Below are positions 25,734 to 35,767 of a DNA stretch of 64,000 bases, one piece after another. How positions within the stretch are numbered: the stretch's first letter is position 1; each line of letters opens with the position of its first letter. The translations under genes and the position numbers were made by a program. Under the pieces are notes generated by a model. The model searched no databases. It was not told the origin of the DNA and was given only the letters and a program-made list of their open reading frames with translations. Where the stretch lies: the NCBI RefSeq assembly GCF_000016185.1, contig NC_011420.2:1632501-1696500 (forward strand), given 5' to 3'. Source of the stretch: Rhodospirillum centenum SW. Its GTDB lineage: Bacteria > Pseudomonadota > Alphaproteobacteria > Azospirillales > Azospirillaceae.

Positions 25734-28700
25734 ATGGCCAAGCGCATGCTTGTGGACGCCACACACCCGGAGGAGACCCGGGTCGTCGTGGTCAGCGGCA
25801 ACAGGCTGGAGGAACTCGATTTCGAGATCGCCAGCCGGAAGCAACTCAAGGGCAACATCTATCTGGCGAAGGTCATCCGGGTGGAGCCGTCGCTCCAGGC
25901 GGCCTTCGTGGAGTATGGCGGGAACCGGCACGGTTTCCTGGCCTTCTCGGAAATCCACCCGGACTACTACCGTATCCCGGTGGCGGACCGTGAAGCCCTC
26001 CTGCGCGAACAGGAGCGCGAGTACGAGGCCGGCGACCGTGAGCCCGCCTCGGTCGAACAGGTCGAGGATGCCGCCGCCGGTATCGAGGAGACCTCGGCCG
26101 GCGCGGTGCCGGTGGACGAGATCGGCGGCGCCGCCCCCTCCCTGATGGATGAGGGGACCCCGGACGGCAGCAGCGCCGAGGACGGCCCCGAAGGAGAAAG
26201 CCCCCTGTCCGCCGGCGATCCGGAGGATGGCAGCGACTTCGCCGGAGAGGGCGCGGAGGATGCGGGGCCGGACGGCCGCGCGACGGAACTGCGCCACTCC
26301 AACGGCCGTGAAGGCCGGCGCGAGCGCCGCGCCGCCGCCGCGGCCGACGGCGGCGAGACCGTCGAGGAGGATACGGAGGAGGAACGCCGCCGGCGCCCCC
26401 GCCCGCTGAAGTCCTACAAGATCCAGGAGGTGATCAAGCGCCGGCAGATCCTGCTGGTCCAGGTCACCAAGGAGGAGCGCGGCAACAAGGGTGCCGCCCT
26501 GACCACCTACCTGTCGCTGCCCGGCCGCTACTGCGTGCTGATGCCGAACACGCCGCGCGGCGGCGGCATCTCGCGCAAGATCACCAACCCCGCCGACCGC
26601 AAGCGCATGAAGGAGCTGCTGGAGGGCCTGGACGTGCCGCAGGGCATGTCGGTCATCCTGCGCACCGCCGGCATCGAACGCTCCAAGCCGGAGATCAAGC
26701 GCGACCTGGAATACCTGATGCGCCTGTGGGACAGCATCCGGGAGCTGACCCTGCAGTCGGTCGCCCCGGCGCTGATCTACGAGGAGGCGAACCTCATCAA
26801 GCGTTCCATCCGCGACCTCTACGCCTCGGACATCGACGAGGTGATCGTGGAGGGCGAGCAGGGCTACCGCACCGCCAAGGATTTCATGCGGATGCTGATG
26901 CCCAGCCACGCCAAGAAGGTGCAGCCCTACAAGGACGACATCCCCCTGTTCCACCGCTTCCAGGTGGAGGGCGCGATCGAGACCATGTTCGACCCGGTCG
27001 TGCAGTTGCGCTCGGGCGGCTACATCGTCATCAACCAGACCGAGGCGCTGGTCGCCATCGACGTCAACTCGGGCCGCTCCACCAAGGAGCGCAACATCGA
27101 GGAGACGGCGCTGCGCACCAATCTGGAGGCGGCGGAGGAGATCGCCCGCCAGCTCCGCCTGCGCGACCTGGCCGGCCTGATCGTCATCGACTTCATCGAC
27201 ATGGAGGAGGCGCGCAACAACGCCTCCGTCGAGAAGCGGCTGAAGGAGGCGATGAAGGCGGACCGCGCCCGCATCCAGCTCGGCCGCATCTCGCCCTTCG
27301 GCCTGCTGGAGCTGTCGCGCCAGCGCCTGCGCCCGTCGTTGCAGGAGATCAACTTCGAGCGCTGCCCGCACTGCGCCGGCACCGGCCTCGTCCGCTCGGT
27401 GGAGAGCGCCGCCCTGGCCGTGCTGCGCGCCATCGAGGAGGAGGGCATCCGCCGCCGCTCCGCCGAGATCACGGTGACCGCGGCGGCCTCGCTGGTCCTC
27501 TACATCCTGAACCAGAAGCGCGAGAGCCTGACCGCCATCGAACGGCGCTACGGCCTGCGCGTCTATCTGGCCGCCGACGACAGCCTGACCCCGCCGGCCC
27601 ACCGGCTGGAGCGGCTGCGCGCCCGCCAGCCCGGCGACGACCTGCCGGTGGCGCAGACGACGGTCAGTGCCGAGAAGGTCTATGCCGAGACCGACCGGGC
27701 GCTGGAGGTCGAGGAGGCCGAAGAAGCCGAGGAACTGGAGGAGGAGACGGAGGAGAGCGCCGCGACCGCCCCGCAGACCGCCGAGGAGCGGTCGCAGGGT
27801 GACCGCGACAGCCGCCGCCGCCGCCGCCGGCGCCGTCGTCGTCCGGGCGAGGCCCGCTTCGGTGACGCCGAGGCAACCACCCTGCCCGCCGATGCGGAAA
27901 CGGCCGAACGGACCGAGGACGCCGGTGCGGAGGGCGACGAGGACGAGGACGCCGACGACGACGCGGGCGAGGAAGCCGGGGCCGAGGGCTCCGTCTCCGC
28001 AACCGGCGACGACGCCCAGTCCCTGCGCAAGAAGCGCCGCCGCGGCAAGCGGGGCGGCCGCCGCCGGGCGCGTCAGCGGATCGACGGTCTGCCGGAGATC
28101 CCGGGCGAGACCCTGGCCGAAGGCGAGGAAGCCGAGGGCGACGACACCGAGGATGGCGGGGCCGAGGATGGCGGGGCCGGAGAAGCCGCCGAACCGTCCG
28201 GGGCGCTGGCCGTCGCCGGAGAGGGTCCGGCCCTGACCGGGACCGAGACGACTGTCAGCGAACCCGTCGAGCCGTCACCGGACGCCGGAGTCCCGGGCGA
28301 AGCGGTGACGACCGGAACCGTCGTCGCAGCCGCCGAACCGGCGACCGCCGGCACGGAACCGACGGCGAAGCCCAAGCGCAGCCGCGCCCCGCGCAAGAAG
28401 GCCGCGGAAACGCCGGCAGCGGCGGCCGAGGCAACTCCCGTGGCGGAAGCGGCTCCGGCCGAAGCCGCCGAAGCGGAGGAGAAGCCGAAGGCCAAGCGTA
28501 CCCGCGCCCCGCGCAAGAAGACCGCGGAAACGCCGGCGGCGGCGGCCGAGGCAACTCCCGTGGCGGAAGCGGCTCCGGCCGAAGCTGCTGCAGCGGAGGA
28601 GAAGCCGAAGGCCAAGCGTACCCGCGCCCCGCGCAAGAAGACCGCCGCCGCGGAAACGCCGGCAGCGGACACGGTGACGGAAGCGGTCACGGCAGTGGAC

Positions 28701-28841
28701 ACGGACATGGCCACGGCGGTGACGCCGGCCGTGGAGACCCCGGCGGAAACGTCGGCGGCTCCCGCCCCGGTCGAAGCCGCGCCGCAGGCCGTGGTCAACC
28801 CGCCGATCGAAGCGCCGAAGAAGGGCTGGTGGCGCCGCTGA
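25734..28841 (+). CDS. rne: Ribonuclease E
   Basis: A 1035-residue endoribonuclease, the core of RNA decay and of rRNA/tRNA processing. Seen: an N-terminal S1 domain interrupted after HPDYYRIP (near residue 80) by an acidic insertion of about 130 residues, resuming at SYKIQEVIKRRQILLVQVTKEERG; catalytic Asp residues in VAIDVNSG (about 442) and GLIVIDFIDM (about 484); and the zinc-link RCPHCAGTG (about 543). The C-terminal half is disordered, with alternating acidic and arginine-rich blocks and 40-residue tandem repeats ending in RTRAPRKK. This is the region that normally holds RNA-binding and degradosome contacts. GGGGAAGGCGGA precedes the ATG. Confidence 0.96.
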   Translation: MAKRMLVDATHPEETRVVVVSGNRLEELDFEIASRKQLKGNIYLAKVIRVEPSLQAAFVEYGGNRHGFLAFSEIHPDYYRIPVADREALLREQEREYEAGDREPASVEQVEDAAAGIEETSAGAVPVDEIGGAAPSLMDEGTPDGSSAEDGPEGESPLSAGDPEDGSDFAGEGAEDAGPDGRATELRHSNGREGRRERRAAAAADGGETVEEDTEEERRRRPRPLKSYKIQEVIKRRQILLVQVTKEERGNKGAALTTYLSLPGRYCVLMPNTPRGGGISRKITNPADRKRMKELLEGLDVPQGMSVILRTAGIERSKPEIKRDLEYLMRLWDSIRELTLQSVAPALIYEEANLIKRSIRDLYASDIDEVIVEGEQGYRTAKDFMRMLMPSHAKKVQPYKDDIPLFHRFQVEGAIETMFDPVVQLRSGGYIVINQTEALVAIDVNSGRSTKERNIEETALRTNLEAAEEIARQLRLRDLAGLIVIDFIDMEEARNNASVEKRLKEAMKADRARIQLGRISPFGLLELSRQRLRPSLQEINFERCPHCAGTGLVRSVESAALAVLRAIEEEGIRRRSAEITVTAAASLVLYILNQKRESLTAIERRYGLRVYLAADDSLTPPAHRLERLRARQPGDDLPVAQTTVSAEKVYAETDRALEVEEAEEAEELEEETEESAATAPQTAEERSQGDRDSRRRRRRRRRRPGEARFGDAEATTLPADAETAERTEDAGAEGDEDEDADDDAGEEAGAEGSVSATGDDAQSLRKKRRRGKRGGRRRARQRIDGLPEIPGETLAEGEEAEGDDTEDGGAEDGGAGEAAEPSGALAVAGEGPALTGTETTVSEPVEPSPDAGVPGEAVTTGTVVAAAEPATAGTEPTAKPKRSRAPRKKAAETPAAAAEATPVAEAAPAEAAEAEEKPKAKRTRAPRKKTAETPAAAAEATPVAEAAPAEAAAAEEKPKAKRTRAPRKKTAAAETPAADTVTEAVTAVDTDMATAVTPAVETPAETSAAPAPVEAAPQAVVNPPIEAPKKGWWRR
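28383..28675 (+). repeat. 120-bp tandem repeat in the rne C-terminal region
   Basis: Two nearly identical 120-bp units (28383-28502 and 28503-28622) and the start of a third encode a 40-residue block: an RAPRKK-type basic motif, an Ala/Pro/Glu-rich stretch, then EEKPKAKRTR. Differences are mostly single bases, so the duplication is recent or kept by gene conversion. Confidence 0.9.
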
Positions 28842-28930: not shown

Positions 28931-30460
28931 CAGACTGCTGACAAAGGCCTGGCGTGAGCCGGGCCTTTGTGATTCGATTGGTCATGCTGAGGAAACCGAC
29001 GGCGCAGCAGACTGAAATCGAGATGGTGACGCTCGACGGTCTGGTTCCGCCCGATCACCTGCTTCGCAAGATCGACGCGGTGATCGACTTCTCCTTCATC
29101 CATGATCGCGTGTCCGGGCTTTACTGTCCGGACAACGGCCGTCCGGCCCTTGATCCGGTTGTCATGTTCAAGGCGCTGTTCATCGGCTACCTGTTCGGCA
29201 TCCGCTCCGAACGCCAGCTGGTGCGCGAGATCCAGGTGAACGTGGCGTATCGCTGGTTTCTGGGTCTGCGCCTGACCGATCCGGTGTTCGACGCCTCGAC
29301 GCTGAGCCAGAACCGGCGCCGGCGTTACCGGGACACCTCCGTGGCGCAGGACATCTTCGACCATGTGGTGGAGCAGGCGATCGGCCACGGGCTGGTGGAC
29401 GGCACCGTGCTCTACACCGACAGCACCCACCTCAAGGCCAACGCCAACAAGAACCGCTACGACAAGGCGGTGGTCGCCAAGTCGCGGGCGGATTACTGGG
29501 ACGATCTGGACCGGGCGGTGGAGGCGGACCGCGCCACCCACGGCAAGAAGCCCCTCAAGCCCAAGGACCGGCAGCCGCCCGAGAAGGAGACCAAGATCAG
29601 CCGCACCGATCCGGAGAGCGGCTACATGGTGCGCGATGGCAAGCCCACCGGCTTCTTCTACCTTGATCACCGCACCGTGGATGGGCGCCATGGCATCATC
29701 ACCGACAGCTTCGCCACCCCCGCCAACGTGCACGACAGCATCGTCTATCTCGGCCGGCTCGACCGCCAGCGCGCCCGCTTCGCGCTCGACGTCAAGGCCG
29801 TCGGGCTGGACGCCGGCTATGCCACGGCCGGGATCGCAAAGGGGCTGGAGGACCGCGCCATCCTCGGCGTCACCGGCTACAACCGACCGACACCCCCGGC
29901 CCCGGGGATGATGCCCAAGAGCGCCTTCACCTACGAGCCCGGGACCGACACCTGGTCATGCCCCGGCGGACAGGCCCTCGCCTACGCCACCACCGACCGC
30001 AACGGCTACCGCCACTACAGGAGCGATCCGGCCCTCTGCTTCGCCTGCCCGCTGCTCGCGTCGTGCACCCGCAACCCCAAGGCCGTCCGCACCATCACCC
30101 GCCACCTCTGGGCCGACATCCGCGAGCGCACCGACGCCCACCGCAAGACCCCCTGGGGCAAGGCCATCTACAAGCGACGAAAAGAGACGGTCGAACGCTC
30201 CTTTGCCGACGCCAAACAGCTCTTCGGGCACCGCTACGCACGCTTCCGCGGCCTCCTCGGCGTCACCTGGCAGTGCCTGCTCGCCGCCGCCGCCCAGAAC
30301 ATCAAGAAAATCGCCCTCGCAATCGCCCCGAAGGCAGCCCTCCGGCCAGCCTGAGACAGAAACCTCCCTGTCTGCCCGATCCACCCAACCAGTTTCGACA
30401 GCCGCAATCCCCAAAAATGAAAACCCCGCCGAAAACGACGGGGTTTGTCATCGGTCTGAC
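28929..30460 (+). mobile_element. IS1182-family insertion sequence
   Basis: An intact element of about 1.53 kb. The terminal inverted repeats are imperfect: left GTCAGACTGCTGACAAAG, right end in inverse GTCAGACCGATGACAAA. It is flanked on both sides by the same 20-bp palindrome GGGGAGGCTCACGCCTCCCC, which is either a 20-bp target duplication or 24 bp if ACGGGG...CCCCGT is counted (the ends are ambiguous by 2 nt). Subterminal hairpins at 28941-28970 (13-bp stem, one wobble pair) and 30421-30446 look like transcription terminators that insulate the element. IS1182 elements are known to choose palindromes. Confidence 0.92.
28984..30354 (+). CDS. IS1182-family transposase
   Basis: A 456-residue DDE transposase, apparently complete. 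Seen: the N-terminal domain with PPDHLLRKIDAVIDFSF and the conserved YRWFLGL and STLSQNRRRR; catalytic Asp residues in YTDSTHLKANANK (about residue 150) and GLDAGYAT (about 280); a zinc-like cluster CPGG...CFACPLLASC; and the catalytic Glu in RRKETVERSFADAKQLFGHRYARFRG (about residue 403). I chose the ATG at 28984; an in-frame GTG 30 nt upstream lies inside the subterminal hairpin. No frameshift or stop disrupts it, so the IS may still be active. Confidence 0.94.
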   Translation: MLRKPTAQQTEIEMVTLDGLVPPDHLLRKIDAVIDFSFIHDRVSGLYCPDNGRPALDPVVMFKALFIGYLFGIRSERQLVREIQVNVAYRWFLGLRLTDPVFDASTLSQNRRRRYRDTSVAQDIFDHVVEQAIGHGLVDGTVLYTDSTHLKANANKNRYDKAVVAKSRADYWDDLDRAVEADRATHGKKPLKPKDRQPPEKETKISRTDPESGYMVRDGKPTGFFYLDHRTVDGRHGIITDSFATPANVHDSIVYLGRLDRQRARFALDVKAVGLDAGYATAGIAKGLEDRAILGVTGYNRPTPPAPGMMPKSAFTYEPGTDTWSCPGGQALAYATTDRNGYRHYRSDPALCFACPLLASCTRNPKAVRTITRHLWADIRERTDAHRKTPWGKAIYKRRKETVERSFADAKQLFGHRYARFRGLLGVTWQCLLAAAAQNIKKIALAIAPKAALRPA

Positions 30461-30540: not shown

Positions 30541-31251
30541 TCAGTCGCGGAGCGACCAGCCCATCTCCCAGAAGCCGGCTTCCAGCCGGCAGGCGGCATC
30601 GAAGCCGCGGGCGAGCGACGCGAAGCGTGCCTCCGCCCCCCGCTCGGCCCCGAGCCGGTCGAGCAGCGCGACAGAAGCCGCGGCCACCGCGCGGTATTCC
30701 GGATCGGCATACATGCGGATCCAGTCCGCATAGGGATTGCCGTCCAGCACGGTCGCCGGATCGGCCATCAGGACGGCGGCGATCTCGGCATAGCCGATGA
30801 TGCAGGGGGAAAGGGCGACGTGCAGGTCCAGCAGGTCGCCGCTCATGCCCCGCTCCAGCACGAAGCGGGTGTAGGCCAGCGTCGCCGTCGCCTCGGGCGT
30901 CGCGGCCATCGCCGCCTCGTCAAGGCCCCAGCCCGCGCAATAGCGGACGTGCAGCCCCATCTCCAGGTCCAGGATGGCAGCCATGGAGCGCGACGCGGCC
31001 CGCATGTCCTCCAGCCGGTCGGCCTTGTAGGCGGCCAGGGCATAGGCCCGGGCGAAGTGGATCAGGAACAGGTAGTCCTGCACCAGATAATGGCGGAAGC
31101 TGGCTTCCGGCAGGGAGCCGTCCCCCAGCCCGCGCACGAAGGGATGGCGGACATAGAGATCCCAGGACGGCCGGCAGGCCGCGCGCAGGCGGTCGAACAG
31201 ACCGCCCGGCGTGGCGAGATCGGGCAGGGGCGCGGGCGTTGCGTCCGCCAT
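30541..31251 (-). CDS. tenA: TenA-family thiaminase II-like protein
   Basis: A 236-residue helical protein of the TenA family, which hydrolyses thiamine breakdown products (aminopyrimidine salvage) in the cytoplasm. Seen: the opening helix SWDLYVRHPFVRGLGDGSLPEASFRHYLVQDYLFL, Asp in LDLEMGLH, the nucleophile Cys in LSPCIIGYAEI (about residue 145), and the late catalytic Glu in EAGFWEMGW. It is the last gene of the iron-sulfur cluster group and starts 6 nt past fdx. No thiamine gene is nearby. It ends about 60 nt from the IS-flanking terminator. Confidence 0.9.
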   Translation of the reverse strand: MADATPAPLPDLATPGGLFDRLRAACRPSWDLYVRHPFVRGLGDGSLPEASFRHYLVQDYLFLIHFARAYALAAYKADRLEDMRAASRSMAAILDLEMGLHVRYCAGWGLDEAAMAATPEATATLAYTRFVLERGMSGDLLDLHVALSPCIIGYAEIAAVLMADPATVLDGNPYADWIRMYADPEYRAVAAASVALLDRLGAERGAEARFASLARGFDAACRLEAGFWEMGWSLRD

Positions 31252-31257
31252 GCCGGA

Positions 31258-31578
31258 TCAGCCCTGGCTGCCGCCGGGCAGGCGCACGACCAGCCCGTCC
31301 AGTTCCTCGGTGATGCGGATCTGGCAGCCCAGGCGCGAGGTCTTGGTCAGGCCGAAGGCGAGGTCCAGCATGTCCTCCTCGTCCTCGCTGGCATCGGGCA
31401 GCAGATCGTACCACTGCGGATCGACGATCACATGACAGGTCGAGCAGGCGAGCGAACCCTCGCAGGCGCCTTCGAGGTCGATGTCGTGGCGGCGGGCAAC
31501 TTCCAGGATCGACAGACCAAGCGGGGCTTCGACCTCGCGGCGGGTACCATCGGTTTCGACGAAGACCATCTTCGGCAT
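31258..31578 (-). CDS. fdx: ISC-type [2Fe-2S] ferredoxin
   Basis: A 106-residue ferredoxin of the adrenodoxin/ISC class, an electron donor for Fe-S cluster assembly. Seen: the cluster-binding cysteines in [12 protein letters not shown] (C-x5-C-x2-C, residues 39-48) and the fourth in RLGCQIRI (about residue 85), with an acidic surface segment [16 protein letters not shown] between them, where partners bind. GGGAG precedes the ATG. It lies downstream of hscB with a 123-nt gap. Confidence 0.93.
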
Positions 31579-31701: not shown

Positions 31702-32334
31702 TCAGCCGCCCTCCGGCGGCGGGGTCAGATCGCGGCGCCGGCGGCGGGCCGCCTCGGCCGCAGCCTGCAGGCGGCGCAGCCGGCCCAGTTGCACGGCGGC
31801 CTCCTCCCCCTCCTCCCGGCGGAAGGCGGCGGACAGGGCCCGCAGCACCGCCTCCCGCTCCCGCCCGATCTCGGCGGCGGTGCGGTCCAGCGCGGCGGCA
31901 TCGCCGGCCGCGGCCACGGCCTGCGCCCAGGGATCGGACAGCGGCTCCGCCGCGACGGGGACGCCGGCCAGCTTCAGCAGCAGGGCTGCCCGCCGCATCG
32001 GGTCGCGCAGTTCGGCCAGGGCGTCGTCCAGCGCATCGCGGTGGGCCTGCGCCATCGCCTTCTCCCGCGGGCCGCGGCCCTCGAAGCGGGCGGGATCGAG
32101 CACGCGGTGGAAGCCGGCATGCTGGCGCTCCAGTTCCGCCGGCTCCAGGTCGAAGCGCCGCGGCAGGGTCAGCCGGGCAAAGGCGTCCAGAGCCGCGGGC
32201 GGCTGGATCGTGCCGCACTGGTGGCAGAACAGGGCGCGGGGCGACACCGCCCGGCCACACAGCCAGCAGGAACCGAGATCACCGTCGATGGGAGCGGCGC
32301 GGCGGGGACCGCTGCCGGGGGGCGCCTGGGTCAT
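31702..32334 (-). CDS. hscB: HscB-like J-domain co-chaperone with N-terminal zinc ribbon
   Basis: A 210-residue protein resembling HscB/HSC20, which delivers the scaffold IscU to the Hsp70 HscA. Residues 23-43 hold a tetracysteine ribbon, CWLCG and FCHQCGTIQPP, closely like eukaryotic HSC20 and unlike E. coli HscB. The J-like part (residues 48-120) matches HscB in FDLEPAELERQHAGF and ALAELRDPMRRAALLLKLAG, and the C-terminal helical domain follows. The J-domain signature HPD is missing: the aligned place reads LDP (VLDPARF). HPD normally triggers Hsp70 ATP hydrolysis, so this protein may not stimulate a chaperone. No hscA or iscU is adjacent. Confidence 0.8.
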   Translation of the reverse strand: MTQAPPGSGPRRAAPIDGDLGSCWLCGRAVSPRALFCHQCGTIQPPAALDAFARLTLPRRFDLEPAELERQHAGFHRVLDPARFEGRGPREKAMAQAHRDALDDALAELRDPMRRAALLLKLAGVPVAAEPLSDPWAQAVAAAGDAAALDRTAAEIGREREAVLRALSAAFRREEGEEAAVQLGRLRRLQAAAEAARRRRRDLTPPPEGG

Positions 32335-32481: not shown

Positions 32482-33603
32482 TCAGGCGGTCTGCGCCAGG
32501 ATCGGCTGACGCTGCCGGGCGAGAAGAAGCCACGCCTCCGCAAAGCGGTCCAGGTCCGCCTCCGTCGTCAGCCAGCCGGCGCTGACCCGGATGGCACCGG
32601 CGGCCAGATCGTCCGCCACGCCCATGGCACGCAGCACATGGGAGGCATGGACCTTGCCGCTGGAGCAGGCGGCCCCCGAACTGACGGCGACGCCGGCCAG
32701 ATCGAGCGCCATGAGCTGCGTCTCTGCCGGGACGCCGGGCAGCGCGAGGCAGAGCGTGTTGCCAAGGCGGGGAACCCCGCTCCCGAAGCTCCGCGCCTGC
32801 GGCACCGAAGCCAGCAGCCGCGCCTCCAGCGCATCGCGCCGGCGCGCCAGGGTATCGTAGAAGCCGAGGTCCTGCCCCGCCGCCTGGGCCGCGGCACCGA
32901 AGCCGGCGATGCCGGCCACGTTCTCCGTGCCCGCCCGACGCCGGCGCTCCTGCCCGCCGCCGCGCAGCAGCGGCTCCAGCGGCACGCCGTCGGCCACGAC
33001 CAGGGCGCCGACGCCCTGCGGCCCGCCGAGCTTGTGCGCCGAGAGCGTCAGCAGATGCGCGCCCAGCGTCCGCAGATCGAGCGGCAGGCGCCCCGCCGCC
33101 TGGGCGGCGTCCACATGCAGGAACCCGCCGCGGGCGCGGACCAGGGCGGCGATCTCCCTCACCGGCTGGATCACGCCGGTTTCGTTGTTCGCGGCCTGGA
33201 CGGAGACGAGAACCGGGCCGGGCGCGGCCTCCAGCAGGGCCGCCAGCGCCGCGGGATCGACACGGCCGTCCGCGTCCACCGGGATGCGACCGGCATCGGG
33301 GGCGGCATCGAGGACGGAGACATGCTCCACCGCCGAGACAAGACGGCAGGCGGCAGGCGTGCGCAGGGCCAGGGCATTGGCCTCCGTTCCGCCGCCGGTG
33401 AAGACGACCTGTTCCGGCGAGGCACCGACCAGGGCGGCGACGTGCAGTCGCCCCTCCTCCACCCGGCGGCGGGCCCGCCGGCCGAAGCCGTGGACGGAGG
33501 ACGGATTGCCCGCCTCCTCCAGCGCAGCGAGCATGGCCGCGCGCGCCTCCGGCCGCAGCGGGGCCGTCGCGTTCCAGTCGAGATAGACCCCGGCCGCCAT
33601 CAT
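32482..33603 (-). CDS. Cysteine desulfurase (NifS/IscS family)
   Basis: A 373-residue PLP enzyme that takes sulfur from cysteine for Fe-S clusters and thiolation. Seen: YLDWNATAPLRPEA at the start, the His-containing AVEHVSVL near residue 93, QAANNETGVIQP near residue 137, the PLP lysine in LTLSAHKLGGPQGVG (about residue 192), and the persulfide cysteine in SSGAACSSGKVHASHVLRAMG (about residue 313) on a short class I-type loop. It lies 25 nt after iscR. The length of 373 is shorter than IscS (about 404) and nearer to NifS-like paralogues, so I leave the symbol blank. Confidence 0.9.
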   Translation of the reverse strand: MMAAGVYLDWNATAPLRPEARAAMLAALEEAGNPSSVHGFGRRARRRVEEGRLHVAALVGASPEQVVFTGGGTEANALALRTPAACRLVSAVEHVSVLDAAPDAGRIPVDADGRVDPAALAALLEAAPGPVLVSVQAANNETGVIQPVREIAALVRARGGFLHVDAAQAAGRLPLDLRTLGAHLLTLSAHKLGGPQGVGALVVADGVPLEPLLRGGGQERRRRAGTENVAGIAGFGAAAQAAGQDLGFYDTLARRRDALEARLLASVPQARSFGSGVPRLGNTLCLALPGVPAETQLMALDLAGVAVSSGAACSSGKVHASHVLRAMGVADDLAAGAIRVSAGWLTTEADLDRFAEAWLLLARQRQPILAQTA

Positions 33604-33628: not shown

Positions 33629-34099
33629 CTACTCCGCCGCGACCGGCGCCGGCCGGGCGTCCTGAATCAGCATCTGGCCCGTGCTCAGGATGCGCCGCTC
33701 GACCACGTCGGCCAGCGACACGGAGCTGAGATAGAGGTGGATCTGGTTGCCCAGTTCCTCCCACAGGTCATGAGTCAGGCAGCGGGTCTTATTGGCCCGG
33801 CAGCCGGCCGGCGAATGGGCGGCGCAGCGGGTGGCGCGGATCGGCTCGTCCACCGCCAGGATGATGTCGGAGATGCGCATCGCCTCCGCCGGACTGGCCA
33901 GCAGATAGCCACCGCCGGGCCCGCGCACGCTCTTGACCAGCCCGCCCTTGCGCAGCTTGGCGAAAAGCTGCTCCAGGTAGGAGAGCGAGATTTCCTGCCG
34001 GTCGGCGATCTCCGCCAGGGCCACGGGATGGCCCTTGCTGCTCTTGGCGAGATCGACCATCGCCATGACCGCGTAGCGGCCCTTCGTACTCAGTCTCAT
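33629..34099 (-). CDS. iscR: Rrf2-family iron-sulfur regulator IscR
   Basis: A 156-residue winged-helix repressor that senses Fe-S cluster supply through a [2Fe-2S] centre. Seen: the N-terminal MRLSTKGRYAVMAMVDLA, the recognition region EISLSYLEQLFAKLRKGGLVKSVRGPGGGYLLA, and three cysteines spaced C-x7-C-x6-C around residues 92-107 (RCAAHSPAGCRANKTRC), the cluster ligands. Spacing between the cysteines is wider than in E. coli. It sits second in the cluster, 32 nt after cysE. An IscR-like site overlaps the -35 of the cysE promoter, so autoregulation is likely. Confidence 0.93.
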   Translation of the reverse strand: MRLSTKGRYAVMAMVDLAKSSKGHPVALAEIADRQEISLSYLEQLFAKLRKGGLVKSVRGPGGGYLLASPAEAMRISDIILAVDEPIRATRCAAHSPAGCRANKTRCLTHDLWEELGNQIHLYLSSVSLADVVERRILSTGQMLIQDARPAPVAAE

Positions 34100-34131: not shown

Positions 34132-34875
34132 TCAGGCCGGGCCCGTGCTTTCGCGGTAAGTCCGGCGGTCTTCGCCGCCGTTGGCAGGAACGGGGTCGGC
34201 GGCGGGATCGTCCTCCGCCAGCCGGTCCCGTTCCAGTTCCTCCACCCGCTGGCGCAGGCCATGGACCTGGTCCAGCAATCCGTTGAGCGCCCGGGCGACC
34301 GGGTCGGGAATGTCACCGCAGGGGGTGCCGTAGGCCAGGAAGTCCTGCGCCACGGCCTTCGCCCGCGGCATCACCTGGCGCGCCGGAATGCCGACGACCG
34401 TCACCCCCGCCGGAACATCGGCGACGACCACGGCGTTGGAACCGATGCGCGCACCGGCGCCGACGGTGATGTTGCCCAGGACCTTGGCGCCCGCGCCGAT
34501 GATCACCCCGTCCTGGATCGTGGGATGGCGCTTGCCCTTCTCCAGCGACGTGCCACCCAGGGTCACGGCATGGTAGAGATGCACATTGTCCCCCACCACC
34601 GCCGTCTCACCGATGACCACGCCCATGCCGTGGTCGATGAAGAAATGCCGGCCGATGCGGGCGCCGGGATGGATTTCGATGCCCGTCAGGAAACGTGCCA
34701 GATGCGAGATGAACCGCCCGAGAAGACGCCACTCCGCCGTCCAGACCCGATGGGCGATGCGATGCAGGAGGATGGCGTGCAGGCCGGGATAGCACAAAGC
34801 GACTTCGAGCCGGGACCGCGCAGCGGGATCACGGGCGATGACGGCATCGATTTCTTCTCGAAGACGCTTGAACAC
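34132..34875 (-). CDS. cysE: Serine O-acetyltransferase
   Basis: A 247-residue enzyme making O-acetylserine, the precursor of cysteine. Seen: the N-terminal helical part [24 protein letters not shown] and the left-handed beta-helix with [33 protein letters not shown] and [22 protein letters not shown], including the catalytic His and Asp. I chose a GTG start at 34875 because GGGAG lies just upstream and homology begins there; the frame stays open further out. It is first in the cluster, so cysteine supply and sulfur transfer are transcribed together. Confidence 0.94.
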
Positions 34876-34971
34876 TGATGCTCCCGCTGTGGTATATTCC
34901 GCGCCCTGACCGGCTCGCCCCAGCGTGCCGCGGATCTGCGGATAGTACGCCTCCGGGCGCCCATGGGCAGC

Positions 34972-35000
34972 GATATATGATGACCTACCAGTATGGTCAA
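34972..35000 (-). promoter_or_regulatory. Promoter of the cysE-iscR cluster
   Basis: On the minus strand TTGACC (35000-34995), a 17-nt spacer, and TATATC (34977-34972). The -35 matches 5 of 6 and the -10 matches 4 of 6 with ideal spacing. The predicted start site is about 90 nt before the cysE start codon. Confidence 0.7.
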
Positions 35001-35004
35001 GTAT
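34980..35004 (-). promoter_or_regulatory. IscR-like operator overlapping the -35 box
   Basis: The minus-strand 25-nt site begins ATACTTGACC and ends GGTAGGTCAT. Its first half fits the type 1 IscR pattern ATASYYGAC well and its second half poorly. It also contains TGACC-N9-GGTCA as an inverted repeat. Overlap with the -35 would give repression, as known for iscR promoters elsewhere. Confidence 0.5.
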
Positions 35005-35104
35005 TCCCCCGTGAGAATCTCGCCGCCGCCGCCCGTCCGGAGAATGGAATTTCGGCATTCCGCCGTGCGAGCATTGGAAAAGCACTGAACCGGGACCGGT
35101 AACA

Positions 35105-35767
35105 ATGCCTGACGTCATCATCAACGGGCCGGCCGGCCGGCTTGAGGGTCGCTATACGCACGGCAAGACGCCGAATGCGCCGATCGCTCTGCTGCTGCAT
35201 CCGCACCCGCAGCACGGCGGGACGATGAACAACCGCGTCGTCTACACGCTCTTCCATGCCTTCGCCAAACGGGGCTTCTCCGCCCTGCGCTTCAACTTCC
35301 GCGGGGTGGGCCGCAGCCAGGGCAGCTACGACCGCGGCGAAGGCGAGCTGTCGGATGCCGCGTCGGCGCTGGACTGGTTGCAGACCTACAACGCCAACGC
35401 CAGCGCCTGCTGGATCGGCGGCTTCTCCTTCGGGGCCTGGATCGGCATGCAGCTCCTGATGCGCCGGCCGGAGATCGACGGTTTCATCTCCGTCGCGCCG
35501 CCCGCCAACATGTTCGACTTCAGCTTCCTGGCCCCCTGCCCCGCCTCGGGCCTGATCATCCATGGCGAGCGGGACGAGCTGGTGCCGGAAGCCTCGGTGG
35601 CACGGCTGGTCACCAAGCTGTCGCATCAGCGCGACATCCGGATCGACTACCGCAAGGTCCCGTCGGCCAACCACTTCTTCGCCAACCAGGCAGACGAGCT
35701 GACCCGGCTGGTGGACGACTATCTGGACACGACCCTGGACCGCCGGATGCCGGCGGTCGCGGAGTAA
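35105..35767 (+). CDS. Alpha/beta-fold hydrolase
   Basis: A 220-residue protein with the dienelactone-hydrolase-like layout often annotated as alpha/beta hydrolase. Seen: [15 protein letters not shown] near residue 36 (oxyanion region), [12 protein letters not shown] near residue 63, the nucleophile elbow GGFSFGAW near residue 106, Asp in HGERDELVP near residue 158, and His in NHFFANQ near residue 190. Substrate unknown; esterase or thioesterase activity is possible. It is divergent from the cysE cluster. Its last codons lie in a 25-bp direct repeat. Confidence 0.87.

Follow-up and report, generated by a model that had tools for sequence, protein, structure and literature searches.

The analysed window, a 64 000-nucleotide stretch of the Rhodospirillum centenum SW genome, encodes on its reverse strand (positions 31702–32334) a 210-residue homologue of HscB that carries a tetracysteine motif and lacks the HPD tripeptide; we call it HscB*. 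The description draws on the open reading frame, PDB matches, a phylogenetic tree and a predicted model. Overall, we consider it likely that HscB* is a descendant of HscB that has come off Hsp70 and IscU and is kept as a tetracysteine adaptor of a desulfurase or ferredoxin. With the function set aside, this account becomes highly likely, and it then includes the reading that the constrained part of the protein is its zinc-ribbon head with four cysteines, carried by a J/three-helix body. Very probably HscB* left Hsp70 and IscU in a switch from the ISC to the SUF system and was kept for a role based on its tetracysteine. Its lineage has no iscS, iscU or hscA and has SUF in their place; HscB* itself has lost the HPD signature for Hsp70 and the positions known to bind IscU, and was retained in a remnant operon, iscR–nifS2–hscB*–fdx. 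Comparison of sequences establishes that HscB* is homologous to HscB, that these losses occurred and coincide with the loss of ISC and the presence of SUF, and also the single origin, the selection and the collinear remnant.

The best PDB sequence match of the window protein (phmmer) is human HSCB (3bvo_A, E = 1.3e-12); the same kind of search matches it to the HscB of Vibrio cholerae (4it5, E = 2.7e-7) and of Escherichia coli (1fpo_A, E = 0.0018). By its sequence, it is a genuine HscB homologue. It falls under every HscB cut-off of the Pfam and NCBIfam profiles; among nine other HPD-less proteins, the HSCB_C profile is above cut-off in three (L010, L017 and L167) and the DnaJ profile in one (L133). 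A model was predicted by AlphaFold2 from three sequences (mean pLDDT 79.1, pTM 0.67). It has six PDB structure matches at E ≤ 0.001, every one an HscB, and Jac1 chains come next (E about 0.1). Superposition of the model gives Z 13.7 for E. coli HscB (model residues 50–206) and Z 13.3 for human HSCB (residues 21–203, the cysteine head among them). In this predicted model HscB* has the HscB fold, composed of a J part and a three-helix body. The first-pass annotation had placed an HscB-like homologue at 31702–32334, and both the matches and the tree agree that this is an alphaproteobacterial HscB relative. HscB* falls outside the definition of the HscB co-chaperone: HPD, IscU patch, HscA and IscU are all missing.

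At the HPD site (residues 80–82; 32089–32097, reverse strand), phmmer aligns the E. coli tripeptide to D80-P81-A82; the proline is retained, and the histidine and the aspartate are lost. The annotation was right that HPD is absent, but its replacement, LDP, is one residue off the aligned DPA. Among 120 alphaproteobacterial loci, 83 have HPD (HPD+) and 37, the window included, do not. The latter carry DPE (11 loci), APE (6), DPQ (5), DPA (4), APA (3), DPD (2) or one of six single forms. A local oddity or a sequencing error, which the annotation had named as a refuting case, is ruled out by the 37 loci in the same state. These 37 comprise 30 loci of the window's family (f1) and seven others, a truncated copy in genome G010 being counted apart; 92 of the 114 genomes with a match were examined, 18 weak ones and G144, G282, G392 and G348 being left out. 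Four J-domain positions conserved in the HPD+ proteins (in 52 or more of the 60 or 61 rows) are lost in HscB*: Q76, H80, D82 and N103. Tyr72, fixed in HPD+ proteins, persists in 11 of 25 HscB*.

The place of the IscU-binding helix (residues about 134–140; 31915–31935, reverse strand) is shortened in the alignment, where the ISC-type homologue of locus L043 has LLIEAMELREEL. The helix is gapped, in at least 4 of its 12 columns, in 36 of the 37 HPD-less proteins versus none of the 83 HPD+ proteins. In the C-terminal region, L134, E138, Y188 and K191 are conserved in HPD+ proteins and lost in HscB*. We read the first three from the alignment as E. coli L92, E100 and F153; according to the accessible part of PMC3040723, L92 and F153 belong to the three residues of E. 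coli HscB that contact IscU most strongly. The IscU-binding patch (E. coli L92, L96 and F153) is thus not kept in HscB*.

The whole-genome search for hscA and iscU that the first-pass annotation had suggested found neither. HscA elsewhere in the window genome is ruled out, as the only full-length Hsp70 scores 639.8 against the HscA cut-off of 708.55; this protein, adjoining a dnaJ ORF, is read as DnaK. IscU is likewise ruled out, the two NifU_N matches being NifU (TIGR02000) and SufU (TIGR01994), both above cut-off; in other f1 genomes NifU is taken from frame length alone. In the five HPD-less genomes outside f1, neither the IscU nor the HscA equivalog is above cut-off, versus both in each of two controls. 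Across 59 relatives, HscA is above cut-off in two, neither belonging to f1. Outside f1, four of the five HPD-less genomes also contain ORFs of 854–927 residues that are Hsp70-like only in their N-terminal stretch (G148:C33, G251:C4, G339:C1 and G414:C6).

The loss of HPD runs parallel to the loss of ISC and the presence of SUF. The fetched locus contains iscU or hscA in 82 of 83 HPD+ cases versus 0 of 37 HPD-less ones; for L005–L034 the flank reaches no further than about 1.5 kb, and not that far where a contig ends, so the absence there rests on the genome searches. In f1, 31 of the 35 genomes encode an HscB* relative, the window and the truncated G010 copy counted, and the remaining four gave only weak profile matches (best E 0.0135 to 0.15). 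SufBD is found in all 35 f1 genomes versus none of eight ISC genomes with an HPD+ HscB, and outside f1 in 5/5 HPD-less versus 0/61 HPD+ genomes, 61 of 74 of the latter having been surveyed. In total, SUF is present in 36 of 36 tested HscB* genomes (31 in f1, five elsewhere) versus 0 of 69 genomes with the HPD form, leaving out two MAGs (L167 and L168). That ISC and SUF are mutually exclusive in Alphaproteobacteria was already known (PMC10631705, accessible part). Since the tree (see below) traces the loss of HPD to a single event, the split of 37 to 83 is a count of sequences and not of independent losses, and its coincidence with the loss of ISC happened once in evolution rather than 37 times. 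Locus L150 (G355) has an HPD+ tetracysteine HscB; isc neighbours are absent to a distance of about 6 kb, and its genome has no SufBD, so it may be a split ISC locus.

As the annotation had noted, no hscA or iscU stands beside hscB*. It had overlooked the ISC-type genes that adjoin hscB* on the same strand: an iscR-type Rrf2 regulator (33629–34099; TIGR02010 191.3 bits, cut-off 207.55); nifS2 (32482–33603), for a NifS/IscS-family cysteine desulfurase and comparable to the additional desulfurase gene that alphaproteobacterial isc operons carry; an ISC-type [2Fe–2S] ferredoxin gene (31258–31578; TIGR02007 below cut-off); and tenA, of the thiaminase II family (30541–31251), which ends the collinear block. 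A cysE-type serine O-acetyltransferase gene, also on the reverse strand (34132–35124), probably has its true start inside the listed ORF. In genome G035 (locus L043) the order is cysE–iscR–nifS2–iscS–iscU–hscB–hscA–fdx–tenA, with IscS, IscU, HscB (TIGR00714) and HscA all above their equivalog cut-offs. The window order, cysE–iscR–nifS2–hscB*–fdx–tenA, is collinear with it, and L043 without iscS, iscU, hscA and the intervening sequence gives the window arrangement. Gene order and sequence thereby establish the window operon as the remnant of an intact ISC operon.

The divergent neighbour, an alpha/beta hydrolase gene (35105–35767, forward strand), was rejected as a special partner of HscB* because intact isc loci are flanked by a hydrolase too. 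It also occurs at L133 (5121–5783), L168 (6557–7225) and L043 (1–591); in L133 and L168 it adjoins although no iscR or nifS2 was found beside hscB*. At G002:C22:80818–83027, two NifS-type desulfurase genes stand in tandem where relatives have nifS2 and hscB*.

The maximum-likelihood tree was built with the columns for HPD and the IscU helix masked. Its rows are 18 of the 30 f1 loci, the seven other HPD-less loci and 61 of the 83 HPD+ loci, namely those with all four cysteines and a score over 100. The HPD-less sequences, 25 in all, come out as a single clade (100/100, in a bootstrap that had not settled), nested among HPD+ alphaproteobacterial HscBs. The tree establishes a single origin of the HPD loss inside Alphaproteobacteria. 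Across 14 pairs of HscB*, dN/dS is 0.05–0.41, and these ratios establish purifying selection. The four cysteines, G41, Q44, F52 and R83 are fixed in 25/25 HscB*; R172 is found in 24/25 and D150 in 22/25. G41, D150 and R172 are newly conserved in HscB*. Mean identity in the J-domain is alike (0.46 in HscB* versus 0.45 in HPD+), and it is lowest in the C-terminal region (0.30 versus 0.33). In G010 (L170) a stop directly behind the J region cuts the copy short, and AGD stands at the HPD place; four other genomes of the same genus (L011, L019, L020 and L024) have full-length HscB*. Because it is missing from four of the 35 f1 genomes and truncated in G010, HscB* is dispensable; on these comparisons it is nonetheless a maintained protein.

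The tetracysteine pattern seen earlier is present as CxxC...CxxC N-terminal to the J-domain: C23, C26, C37 and C40, in a zinc-ribbon-like CWLC..CHQCG (32215–32268, reverse strand). All four cysteines occur in 37/37 HPD-less loci versus 64/83 HPD+ loci, and mean identity of the ribbon is 0.59 in HscB* versus 0.46 in HPD+ HscB. The four cysteines would bind metal, by analogy with human HSCB, whose tetracysteine is named as a metal-binding domain in a title cited by PMC9596805 (accessible part).

The first-pass annotation had offered two readings, and neither holds well. One was that the protein keeps only a scaffold-binding role; in that case its partner would be IscU-like, either NifU or SufU, and Hsp70 would have no part. 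The window genome does encode both scaffolds, which favours it. However, the main IscU contacts are lost with L134 and Y188, the binding helix is shortened, the window genome has no IscU, and the five HPD-less genomes outside f1 have none above cut-off; we regard this reading as very unlikely. The other was that the protein marks a branch near the origin of the mitochondrial protein, which the annotation supported with a eukaryote-type zinc ribbon. Human HSCB is indeed the best PDB sequence match, and forcing HscB* together with human HSCB and Jac1 costs 17 log units at p = 0.087 in the AU test, a result that disfavours mitochondrial kinship without rejecting it. The tree nevertheless sets human HSCB and Jac1 outside the starred fork (95/94) that contains HscB*, nested as it is in alphaproteobacterial HPD+ HscBs, and human HSCB has HPD and, opposite the IscU helix in the alignment, the stretch LIEIMEINE. 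The tetracysteine is not specific to eukaryotes; being common in HPD+ alphaproteobacterial HscBs, it is no sign of mitochondrial kinship. That HscB* marks the branch that gave rise to mitochondrial HSCB is extremely improbable.

The annotation had also proposed that Hsp70 stimulation was lost, and this is supported: with H80 and D82 replaced and Q76 and N103 not kept, HscB* very probably no longer stimulates Hsp70. According to the accessible passages of a review (PMC13254874), even a change of D to N or of H to Q ends stimulation. These changes weigh heavily against the opposite reading, a co-chaperone now of DnaK that is active without HPD, which we find highly improbable even though the genome has one full-length Hsp70, the predicted model keeps the J fold and Tyr72 persists in part of the clade. 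The same passages report that HPE is tolerated in DjlB/DjlC and that a designed J-domain analogue, discussed around an HPD-less viral protein, stimulates Hsc70. It is also conceivable that the use of HscB ended with ISC and that HscB* is a slowly disappearing relic, the HPD change being simple relaxation. The four f1 genomes without it, the truncated copy of G010 and the weakly conserved C-terminal region fit such decay. Against it stand the four cysteines in every one of the 37 loci, the low dN/dS ratios, the newly conserved G41, D150 and R172, and a ribbon conserved more strongly than that of HPD+ proteins; we consider decay unlikely.

In the preferred account, a descendant of HscB released from Hsp70 and IscU, the present job would be that of a small tetracysteine adaptor in sulfur/Fe–S traffic, docking on a cysteine desulfurase and/or an ISC-type ferredoxin, with NifS2 as the first candidate. 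A desulfurase/ferredoxin dock is the likeliest choice because nifS2 neighbours hscB* in 32 of the 37 HPD-less loci and because E. coli HscB binds IscS, at the site that ferredoxin and frataxin also use (PMC5037179, accessible part). For its contact with IscS, E. coli HscB employs acidic residues. A genome survey at 1e-30 did not uphold NifS2 as an obligate partner: G148 and G251 have HscB* and no NifS2 at that threshold, and three f1 genomes (G002, G007 and G009) have NifS2 without HscB*. In view of these mismatches, this specific function is put forward only tentatively. The best ferredoxin scores are 52 bits in G148, 50 in G251 and 86 in the window genome, and the cut-off of the ISC ferredoxin family was passed by none of 10 genomes. 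A broader formulation, to which we give not quite even weight, is that of a new Hsp70-free family derived from HscB, whose tetracysteine head would have turned into the working part once SUF had replaced ISC, as an adaptor or a sulfur/metal relay for desulfurase, ferredoxin or SUF. If the account is true, HscB* is a natural J-protein retained after both its chaperone and its client were lost.

HscB* and human HSCB/HSC20 (3bvo) agree in their tetracysteine head, J-type fold and C-terminal helices and in the sequence of these parts, but the human protein keeps HPD and the IscU-helix stretch, and HscB* has neither. The ISC-type HscB of L043 has the same operon place, a CWxC..CxxC head, a common ancestry and 31 per cent identity to the window protein; unlike HscB*, it has HPD, the IscU helix and iscS, iscU and hscA alongside. 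E. coli HscB (1fpo) resembles the predicted model in its J and C-terminal fold (Z as above), whereas its chain opens directly with the J-domain, lacks a tetracysteine head and carries HPD. Having a recognizable J-domain in which HPD is non-conservatively replaced, HscB* would fall under the pseudo-JDPs (type IV J-proteins, e.g. Pam16) as defined by sequence in the accessible passages of PMC13254874; it differs from Pam16-type proteins in belonging to another lineage and in that HPD was lost along with the complete ISC client system.

ISC genes that outlive ISC, and HscB without HscA, have precedents in the accessible parts of two papers: Mycobacterium tuberculosis has SUF and an ISC operon reduced to iscS (PMC10848736), and two genomes with HscB and without HscA are cited in PMC9596805. 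Those passages, unlike the present case, are silent on HPD or tetracysteine. Prokaryotic hscB is accompanied by hscA in 328 of 330 genomes according to PMC13254874 (accessible part), where it is also called enigmatic whether departures from HPD are accidental or selected. In a literature search that had most subscription journals outside its reach, we recognized no paper describing an HPD-less tetracysteine HscB clade. HscB* provides a clear case of HPD departure, with an identifiable setting (ISC loss), an intact relative operon and ongoing selection. It makes it possible to study directly how the HSCB tetracysteine functions in the absence of Hsp70 and scaffold, a matter that bears on human HSCB too. 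It is also a warning that similarity to HscB is no proof of the presence of ISC.

Genome G077 (C52 and C97) has two IscU and two HscA genes above cut-off, apparently a duplicated isc operon. In the window, a 466-residue ORF on the forward strand (28954–30354), which we take to resemble an insertion-sequence transposase, lies between a ribonuclease E-type ORF (25734–28841) and tenA.
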